Source: an uncultured Pirellulaceae bacterium (GTDB lineage: Bacteria > Planctomycetota > Planctomycetia > Pirellulales > Pirellulaceae). From it: 52,513 bases of DNA. How positions within the stretch are numbered: the stretch's first letter is position 1; the number at the start of each line of letters is the position of its first letter. Below, piece by piece: positions 44,937 to 48,346 of this stretch. A program made the position numbers and the translations under genes. The stretch is taken from positions 1-52,513 of the forward strand of contig CALKCC010000037.1 of assembly GCA_938082855.1 (NCBI GenBank), given 5' to 3'. The notes beneath the pieces were generated by a model. The model saw only the letters and a list, made by a program, of their open reading frames with translations, did no database searches and was not told the DNA's origin.

Positions 44937-46187
44937 TTAGGTGGCGTCAGGATCCCCAGCGACTTGATACTCGGCAATGGGGCGTAGTAGGTAGCTGCAA
45001 ATTGCGCAGACTACGCAACCAGCTGAAAAGAACCAGAAGATACCCAGTAAATTGTCCTGCCATTTGAAAAATGCTACCGCGGCATAGAAGATCAGCGTAC
45101 CGGTTCCCCAGGTAACGCCCATCGTTAAGGAACTGGCAAACCTCTGTCCTGCCGGCATGATTTGTTGGGCATAGCTGATGAAGATTGGCATCGCTACACC
45201 CTGGAAAATACCCGAGATCAATGCCAGTACAAATAATTCAGCAACAGGGATCACACCAAAGAGATGGAACCATGCTTCATGACTAGCGGTCCCGATCATG
45301 GCGACGGGAACGGTGGTGAGCAGAGCCGGTAGCCAGAGGGTGAGGCGTTGTCGCTTACTTCCAAACCCGAAGGCACAGGCTATACCTCCAATGCCCAGTC
45401 CGGCCATGAAGTAACTAGCAACCGTCCCTTTGATCGTATCGCTTTCGCCGGACAGTATATAGGACATGACGATCGGGATACCTAAGGCTGGCATGACTCG
45501 AAATACACCTCCTACAAACAACAGGATCATTTGCCCTTTCGGAGCAGGTTCTGTGATCGTGCCTGGGACTGTCTTCGACGAACCTTGACTCTTCAGTGCC
45601 TCCCGCTCCTGTCGTTCTTGCTTCGCGGAGAACCAGTGCAGTCCGATCCCCACAATGGTGAGAAGAGGTAAGCACCAGTAGAAATTATTGGTGAGTCCAG
45701 GTAATTGGAATCGATCTGAGATCCAGCCTCCATAGGTTGGGCCGACAGATTGACCGAGGTATCCAGAGAGAGCGAATAATGCGAGCCAGCGGTTTCGGTT
45801 TGTAGGAGATAGATTTCCGGCGGTCGTCGCGGCTTCCGGGTGAAAAGCAGCCACTCCCATTCCACCTAACATGAGCAGGACGGTCATGCTTACAGGTGAA
45901 TGGACATATCCAATAAAGGAAAAGCAGAACAGTGAGAATAATGGGCCTGCCCAGATTATCGCTTTAATGCGAATCCGATCTCCCAAATAGCCAAAGAACA
46001 TCTGGCCGCAACTGTCGGCCACACGCCAAATGATATAGCCAACCAGAAACCCACCTTCCTCAAGTCCCAGATGTTTTTCCAGACTGGGTAGCAGGCTCAC
46101 GGTTGTGGTTGCCAATACGTCTACGGTGAGATGAGCGACGCAGAGAACAATGAGTAGTTGAACGGCAATACGTGCGTGGCTGGTCAT
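44937..46187 (-). CDS. MFS transporter (fosmidomycin-resistance-like)
   Basis: A 416-residue protein with about 12 helices. The opening (LLIVLCVAHLTVDVLATTTVSLLPSLEK) and the loop GYLGDRIRIKAI resemble the Fsr/YnfM side of the MFS. The central cytoplasmic loop is charged (SAKQERQEREALKSQGSSK). The substrate is unknown. The gene overlaps the HAD phosphatase gene upstream (TAATG), so the two are translationally coupled. Confidence 0.8.
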   Translation of the reverse strand: MTSHARIAVQLLIVLCVAHLTVDVLATTTVSLLPSLEKHLGLEEGGFLVGYIIWRVADSCGQMFFGYLGDRIRIKAIIWAGPLFSLFCFSFIGYVHSPVSMTVLLMLGGMGVAAFHPEAATTAGNLSPTNRNRWLALFALSGYLGQSVGPTYGGWISDRFQLPGLTNNFYWCLPLLTIVGIGLHWFSAKQERQEREALKSQGSSKTVPGTITEPAPKGQMILLFVGGVFRVMPALGIPIVMSYILSGESDTIKGTVASYFMAGLGIGGIACAFGFGSKRQRLTLWLPALLTTVPVAMIGTASHEAWFHLFGVIPVAELFVLALISGIFQGVAMPIFISYAQQIMPAGQRFASSLTMGVTWGTGTLIFYAAVAFFKWQDNLLGIFWFFSAGCVVCAICSYLLRPIAEYQVAGDPDAT

Positions 46188-46930
46188 TAAGGTTTCTCGT
46201 CCATTAAGAAATCCATAAAGTCCAATACGCCGTCTATTTGCTCATACTCCGATACAAAGTGAGCAACCTGTTTAACGTCGTCGATGGCATTTGCCGGGCA
46301 ACCGAATGTTTTGACACGTTGAGCAATGGCCAGATCACTACTGGTATCGCCTATGCCAGCTGTGCGGTCGGCAGGCACGCCGGTCATTTCCAGCAGGCGG
46401 TCAATGCCGGAGGCCTTGGTGATCTGCGGTAGGTCACAGTTTATGTAGAACAGCGTTAAGGAAACTCGGAATTCAAATCCGTGCTGATCAAAAGATTCCT
46501 GGAGCTGTGGGGCGATCCGTTGCAGGACAACTGGATCGGGATGGTATAGCGTGACTGACGCAGACTTACCCGGTTGCAGCGTTACGCCTTCCTGACGATA
46601 TGATTTGAGTGAGAATAATTCGGCCTCATGCACCATCTCCAATTGTTCATCGGTAATGGACGGATCCATCAGGTATCCATTACAGGACGGGTCGTAGAGC
46701 CAGACTCCGTTTTCAGCCACGCAGGGCACGGACGGATTTTGTAGCAGGCGACACAGCCCTTCGGCAAATGGAATCGGACGCCCTGTACAGAGGGTTAATT
46801 TGGGGCGATCGTTTTGAGCGAAGGCCAGACGGTTGTGTTCAGCGATTTGGCTGAGTTTTTGTATGTCTAGTGGGGAAGAGTCTTCGGGGGACAGACAGCC
46901 GTCAATGTCGCTGATAATCAGGTCGTACAT
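46187..46930 (-). CDS. HAD-superfamily phosphatase, type IIB
   Basis: A 247-residue Cof/IIB-type HAD hydrolase. The catalytic motif is IISDIDGCLS (Asp8, Asp10), LCTGRP is motif II, and GIGDTSSDLAIAQ is the late metal-binding motif. The middle carries the cap domain. Related enzymes include sucrose-phosphate, mannosyl-3-phosphoglycerate and phosphoglycolate phosphatases. Translational coupling with an MFS transporter suggests sugar or sugar-acid metabolism, but the substrate cannot be told. Confidence 0.85.
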   Translation of the reverse strand: MYDLIISDIDGCLSPEDSSPLDIQKLSQIAEHNRLAFAQNDRPKLTLCTGRPIPFAEGLCRLLQNPSVPCVAENGVWLYDPSCNGYLMDPSITDEQLEMVHEAELFSLKSYRQEGVTLQPGKSASVTLYHPDPVVLQRIAPQLQESFDQHGFEFRVSLTLFYINCDLPQITKASGIDRLLEMTGVPADRTAGIGDTSSDLAIAQRVKTFGCPANAIDDVKQVAHFVSEYEQIDGVLDFMDFLMDEKP

Positions 46931-47030
46931 AGAGTCTTTTGCGAGCAGGGGGATGATGGGAGGAAGTAGGAATTATGTGCCAAGGAGAGAAGTCTGGCAA
47001 TGAACAATTTAGGTACAGTGACTAATTGAG

Positions 47031-47549
47031 TCAGCGTTGTGAATCATCTGTGGCAGCCAGTACATCAGATATCTGCGTATAATCTGCCGAATGTTTTCCG
47101 TGATGTCGAAAGATGACTTCACCGATGGAATTTACCAGAACCGTTCCATGCATTTGAGTGATGTCATTTAGCGGTTTCCCCATCCCTCCGCGAAGCATTG
47201 CTCGGAGACCGGCCAGCCAGATGCGAGGGCCAAGGTATTGCCATGGAGTTCCTTGAGGAATTTCAAAACTTCGGTATGCAATTTGATCTGGGTCACACAG
47301 TACGGTGTAAGAAAGTTGTAGTTTCTCTACGACAGGCTGAGTCTGTTCGGGGGTGGCCATTACGACGACGACAGATTGGACATTACCGGATTCAAATTCA
47401 GATTGTTGGTTCCGCAGATTGACCATCTGCTCACGACAAAAAACTCATCCAAGATGACGCATGAAATAGAACGCGACAGGTCGTTCATGCCAGAGAGAAT
47501 TGAGTGCAATCCTGTGGCCTTGAGAATCAGGCAGTGTTAAATCAGTCAT
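47031..47549 (-). CDS. Probable selenoprotein: SelL/PRXL2-like redoxin with in-frame TGA (Sec35)
   Basis: A 172-residue thioredoxin-fold protein of the AhpC/TSA-like SelL/PRXL2 group. The ATG at 47549 opens MTDLTLPDSQGHRIALNSLW. Codon 35 is TGA (47447-47445), giving RHLG-U-VFCREQ, exactly where homologues have the first Cys of CxxC. The second Cys (Cys38) is kept. The frame then continues 137 codons with normal family content (VVVVMATPEQTQPVVEKL, YTVLCDPDQIAYRSF, GTPWQYLGPRIWLAGL, HGTVLVNS-like). A SECIS-like hairpin follows the TGA. I read TGA as selenocysteine. Calling the gene from Met42 (47426) would discard the active site. It starts 8 bases after the SDR gene, in a likely operon with tdk. 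A nonsense mutation is the main alternative; the Sec machinery is not in this window. Confidence 0.8.
47403..47439 (-). promoter_or_regulatory. Bacterial SECIS-like element
   Basis: On the minus strand, 14 bases after the TGA, GCAGAT and ATCTGC (47430-47425 with 47419-47414) form a perfect 6-bp stem closing the loop GGTCA. A lower 4-bp helix (TTGT 47439-47436 with ACAA 47406-47403) can form across an internal loop. The first loop G lies 21 bases after the TGA. The known bacterial SECIS pattern is a short apical stem with a G in the first loop positions about 16-37 bases after TGA, as in fdhF whose loop also has GGUC. It would recruit SelB. Confidence 0.7.
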
Positions 47550-47557
47550 CGATAAAC

Positions 47558-48346
47558 TTAGTCCTGCGGGTCAGGTTGTTGCCAAATACTCATTCCACCA
47601 TCGACCATCAGCATGTGTCCACATAAGTGTCTGGCTGCATCGCTAACAAGAAAGACAGCCGAATCACCGCATACGTCAGGGTTGGGAACTTCGCCATTGG
47701 GTGTATGTAATTCCATCCATTGCATGAACTTTGGATCGTCAAGCGCGGGGGCAGTGAGCGGCGTGTAGAATAACCCCGGTGCCAAGCCGTTGACCCGTAT
47801 TCCATGGGGGGCCAATGAGACAGCGACTGATTTAACCATCATTTCAACTGCGCCTTTAGACGTGTCATAGGCTGTATGAACATCTTCGGCGAGTCTTCCG
47901 TTGATGGAGCCGATCATGACGACACGTCCTGCGACTTCTTCGGCGACCCAATGCTTGGCAAAGTGTTGCGTCAGAAAGTAGTAAGAGAAGACGTTGAGCT
48001 TCATGGTTTTTTGAAAACGTTCGACATCCATTTCCAGATAAGGAAGGTCGATATAAGTTCCTGCATTATTAACCAGTGTGTCGATCGCAGGATTGGCAGC
48101 CAAAGCACGTTGAAAGACGTCCAAGGTTGGATCATCGGAATCACTGGCCAGATCTCCGGTAATCAGCTCAGCTTGCACTCCGGTTGCTAAGCAGGCTTGC
48201 AGAGTATCTTGAGCTGAAGCATTATCTTGGAGGCCATGAATAACGACATTGGCTCCGGCTTGGGCCATAGCGATAACAATTGCCTGTCCAACACCTTGTG
48301 TGGAACCTGTGACTAGGACATTACGGCCCGCTAGACTATTCATCAA
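47558..48346 (-). CDS. Short-chain dehydrogenase/reductase
   Basis: A 262-residue classical SDR. Nucleotide binding is shown by [19 protein letters not shown] follows the fourth strand, and the catalytic Ser, Tyr and Lys are in [12 protein letters not shown] and [13 protein letters not shown]. The C-terminus has the family phrase [11 protein letters not shown]. It resembles glucose/3-oxoacyl reductase-type enzymes; the substrate is unknown. Its start (48346 or 48343) lies inside the end of tdk and its stop is 8 bases before the redoxin start, so the three are probably one mRNA. Confidence 0.88.

Follow-up and report, generated by a model that had tools for sequence, protein, structure and literature searches.

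SelL carries two selenocysteine (Sec) residues in a UxxU motif, which form a diselenide. It has been mentioned as a Prx-like protein (PMC2398784), and descriptions of Prx-like selenoproteins with a UxxC motif go back to at least 2005, namely the 'Prx-like' proteins of the Sargasso Sea (PMC1088965), 'Prx-like 1' of the GOS survey (PMC2398784) and the 'Prx-like thiol:disulfide oxidoreductase' (PMC9312934, PMC13188914). Among planctomycetes, one publication reports selenoproteins in a Porphyra planctomycete (PMC4807772); a literature search on SelL in this group yielded nothing of relevance.

The redoxin gene analysed here shares with the bacterial Prx-like UxxC selenoproteins the PF00578 domain, the UxxC motif (and not the TxxU of Sec-peroxiredoxins) and common Cys homologues, and GOS 'Prx-like 1' may include this very redoxin subfamily. 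The Sargasso Sea and GOS surveys consisted of metagenome reads; in the present case the host's own Sec machinery could be examined too (selD as a piece). The redoxin is thus an addition to the already described bacterial redoxin-type (Prx-like UxxC) selenoproteins. The initial annotation had called it a hidden selenoprotein, which is right in the sense that default tools mis-annotate the gene, but not in the sense of a new class, given the descriptions from 2005 onwards.

The NCBIfam model NF040769 ('SelL-related redox protein') is matched over the whole length with the same size and architecture, and no difference was found. With SelL itself, the protein has in common that it is a peroxiredoxin-like redoxin with Sec at motif position 1; the difference is that SelL has UxxU, while residue 38 is here a Cys (TGT), as it is in all nine congeners. 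Therefore, of the proposed 'SelL/PRXL2-like' assignment we keep SelL-related and leave out SelL itself. The closest solved fold is human prostamide/prostaglandin F synthase (PRXL2B; PDB 9us9 and 9usa; 156 residues, 2.5 A), whose CxxC aligns with U35xxC38, with its first Cys on column 35; however, it is a Cys enzyme of 20% identity, and in a planctomycete one would not expect its prostaglandin substrates.

We regard it as almost certain, from the sequence evidence, that the gene encodes a redoxin of the SelL-related/PRXL2-like group with a thioredoxin fold, whose catalytic residue would be selenocysteine. That evidence consists of the frame, a TGA conserved at the catalytic column, the genes for its decoding, a hairpin with covariation and the class of the fold.

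The redoxin gene and its neighbours

The gene occupies positions 47031..47549 of the window (the whole stretch of 52,513 nucleotides that was analysed, from a draft assembly of 351 contigs). These coordinates agree with the initial annotation, in which the strand was unstated; it was found to be the minus strand, with the start ATG at 47549 and the stop TGA at 47033..47031 (172 amino acids plus stop). With TGA read as U, the frame is MTDLTLPDSQGHRIALNSLWHERPVAFYFMRHLG-U35-VF-C38-REQM42...DSQR*, and the sole internal stop of its 172 residues is the TGA at codon 35 (RHLG-U-VF-C; 47445..47447, minus strand), in position 1 of UxxC. Cys38 (TGT; 47436..47438, minus strand), the putative resolving cysteine, belongs to a UVFC motif present in all nine congeners. 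The reading first proposed, a redoxin frame with one TGA at the first Cys of CxxC (Sec35, Cys38) and intact family sequence on both sides, is borne out, and so is the expectation that standard calling would give a truncated protein from Met42, as standard-code ORF calling at this locus returned only 131 amino acids from that residue (47426..47031).

The NF040769 match reached 137.2 bits over residues 3-166 (curated cut-off of 120 bits), and the profiles AhpC-TSA, Redoxin and AhpC-TSA_2 were all matched above their gathering scores (PF00578, 53.7 bits; PF13911, 34.7 bits). A mechanical scan of the window for TGA-interrupted frames (at least 30 amino acids before the TGA and at least 60 after it) gave 30 such frames, among which the redoxin was the only one where a redox motif (UxxC) could be recognised by eye at the TGA.

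Directly upstream lies a gene for an SDR-family oxidoreductase (47558..48346, minus strand; PF13561, 164 bits), whose stop codon is 8 nt before the redoxin ATG. An SDR gene is the upstream neighbour of the redoxin in 7/9 congeners, and this shared neighbour together with the 8-nt gap suggests that the two genes may be cotranscribed. The next gene downstream of the redoxin encodes a HAD-family hydrolase (46930..46187) and is preceded by a promoter-like TTGCCA-17-CATAAT (47000..46972, minus strand). This site is recognisable by eye in most congeners despite diverged surrounding intergenic DNA; the HAD gene is probably transcribed from a promoter of its own.

Codon 35 in related genomes

The homologue search covered 296 genomes of the order, after which all nine genomes of the genus were examined. 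Every one of the nine (this genome included) has a redoxin with an in-frame TGA; the congener TGAs are all at the same codon, in frames that are otherwise intact, with protein identities of 53-82% to this redoxin and with start position and length conserved. An extra TAA flagged in one congener redoxin is the natural stop of that gene. Outside the genus, many homologues carry Cys in the codon-35 column, and others, within the order, carry TGA. In a 16-row family alignment this column holds Cys or Sec in all rows, and therefore codon 35 corresponds to the first, catalytic Cys of CxxC, as the initial annotation had supposed.

The Cys38 column is variable in the same alignment, and some relatives have the second redox residue displaced or lack it (UPCM, CPCT); judged from these sequences, position 38 is less constrained than position 35. 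One UGA-type member (L040:1501-1995, minus strand) has the motif UPCM, i.e., U-x-C in place of U-x-x-C, and two Cys members (L036, L042) have CPCT, with the second redox residue displaced by one. A scan of genome contigs by CxxC peptide pattern gave mainly Cys members, which were used as controls. On a tree of 69 members, four Cys/Sec changes are needed, but the well supported branches force only one, for which reason we do not claim independent origins.

These data bear on the possibility that an ordinary Cys redoxin was hit at its catalytic codon by a nonsense mutation or a sequencing error, leaving a pseudogene. There is a single TGA, one base away from TGT or TGC, and the assembly is a draft; however, the same TGA in intact frames of nine genomes diverged to 53% identity refutes such an origin, and the covarying hairpin and the Sec machinery of the genome (selD as a contig-edge piece) speak against it too, so that we consider it extremely improbable. 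A damaged frame in close relatives, which the initial annotation had named as a sign against its reading, was seen in none of the nine. Just as improbable is the suggestion that UGA is a real stop and that the functional product begins at Met42. The ATG of codon 42 does open the 131-residue ORF, but its product would be without the catalytic motif, and the upstream 34 residues, which contain the RH-x-G stretch as well as beta strands of the fold, are kept in frame in all congeners and belong to a confidently predicted domain.

Selenocysteine machinery and the SECIS-type hairpin

The genome carries a tRNA-Sec with anticodon UCA (65.8 bits), SelB (375 bits) and SelA (539.5 bits), the genes of the two proteins being adjacent on one contig. 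The initial search for selD matched only a ThiL-like protein, which by inspection is a thiamine-phosphate kinase and was rejected, and a direct query of the genome with congener SelD found no selD. The closest relative has a QueC-like gene, so named by inspection, next to its selD in tail-to-tail orientation; in our genome, the end of the QueC-like gene is 120 bases away from the beginning of contig C233, whose first hundred bases (L118:2-100) code for the C-terminal 32 residues of SelD. A SelD tail at the contig edge, beside the gene that is its neighbour in the closest relative, means that selD is present and was cut by the assembly. The machinery for which a search had been advised was therefore found, with selD as a piece. 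The SelD of congeners (L050, L051, L052, L054, L055) is itself UGA-containing, at the canonical CAGUAGK site.

Within the order, SelB scored over the cut-off in 18/20 genomes with a TGA-type redoxin vs 3/46 of those with only Cys types. Both exceptions, G234 and G288, are congeners with draft genomes, and together with G296 they are the congeners in which SelB above the cut-off was not found. G234 (99% complete) has tRNA-Sec, UGA-containing SelD and the UGA redoxin. Contig breaks may well account for these absences, with a divergent SelB as the other candidate for G234. UGA is known to be reassigned in some bacteria; suppression or a code change that would put a different amino acid (Trp or Cys) at this UGA is nevertheless scarcely conceivable here, because the redoxin gene itself stops at a UGA (47033..47031) that is unconserved as a residue, homologues carry Cys and not Trp at the site, and selA, selB and tRNA-Sec are present.

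A bacterial SECIS-type hairpin, GCAGAU-GGUCA-AUCUGC (47414..47430, minus strand), follows the UGA of codon 35, with a 6-bp stem and a 5-nt apical loop that starts with GG and lies 20 nt after the UGA. The published bacterial SECIS model has a loop of 3-9 nt with G in its first two positions, a stem of 4-16 bp, a distance of 16-37 nt from the UGA and an MFE of at most -7.5 kcal/mol (PMC13188914). The hairpin agrees with the constraints on loop length, G, stem and distance. Its energy depends on the stretch that is folded: the core has -6.9 kcal/mol, just short of -7.5, while 60 nt after the UGA give -10.5. When the isolated hairpin was compared with shuffled sequence, it folded no better (z 0.09), and Rfam at gathering thresholds gave no match in the whole window, the SECIS hairpin included. 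The SECIS-like hairpin of the initial annotation thus exists, but the argument from a single sequence is weak, and it is the comparative evidence that makes the hairpin convincing.

A G-loop hairpin with at least 5 pairs, in range, is present in 33/33 UGA members, and such hairpins are not present as a class in Cys members. In the 19 hairpins that share a register, standard pairs fill 100% of the pair cells, falling to 36% or less in slid-register controls of the alignment, and two pairs have changed on both sides (18 cells vs 4.1 in shuffles). The mean hairpin energy of the 33 UGA members is -8.0, against a null of -2.1, and that of 36 Cys members is -1.5, against a null of -1.3; the Cys members are without hairpin excess over synonymous recodings. 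For this gene, 1.3% of synonymous draws with the protein fixed equalled or beat the hairpin, although the p-values of the recoding and co-occurrence tests overstate certainty, because the sequences are related and not independent. More UGA-type redoxin subfamilies occur in the order (L110-L115; L045, L097-L101, L103-L109), with the motifs RSA(D/S)WUPxC and RHLxU(L/P)xC; in the RHLxU(L/P)xC subfamily the hairpin loop is 25 nt from the UGA and mostly AGUU, vs 20-21 nt with GGU.

Predicted structure, proposed chemistry and meaning

The AlphaFold model of the redoxin has a pLDDT of 88.5 and a pTM of 0.86. In it, Sec35 follows the strand 25-29 and directly precedes the helix 36-47, the position that the active site takes in the thioredoxin/peroxiredoxin fold. 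Among solved structures, the best match was the human prostamide/PGF synthase (Z 20.2), with bacterioferritin-comigratory-type peroxiredoxins close behind. At -3 from Sec35, where a canonical peroxiredoxin has T/S (PxxxT/SxxC), the redoxin has His32, which does not vary in the alignment; the signature of a canonical peroxiredoxin is thus lacking. Since the T/S is absent, the enzyme is best inferred to be a thiol-disulfide reductase or a special peroxide reductase, with a selenenylsulfide as intermediate.

To hypothesize, a ribosome translating the UGA of codon 35 would meet the hairpin 20 nt downstream, to which SelB and Sec-tRNA-Sec may bind, with Sec inserted in place of termination; Sec would be supplied by SelA, using selenophosphate from SelD. 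The selenolate of Sec35, at the N-terminus of the helix, could then attack a disulfide or a peroxide-type substrate, after which Cys38 would resolve the intermediate as a selenenylsulfide, to be reduced by a thioredoxin-like donor. Insertion of Sec in vivo, the substrate, the electron donor and the resolution step of Cys38 are all inferred.

It is rather doubtful that we are dealing with an uncatalogued UxxC subfamily of SelL-related redoxins, fixed in one planctomycete genus and marked by a conserved SECIS type of its own, with a GGU loop. What the locus does provide is a well supported case in which standard ORF calling truncates a selenoprotein gene, here at Met42. In addition, Sec is fixed genus-wide in these planctomycete SelL-related redoxins, and together with the Cys homologues of the same order this gives a natural Sec/Cys comparison.
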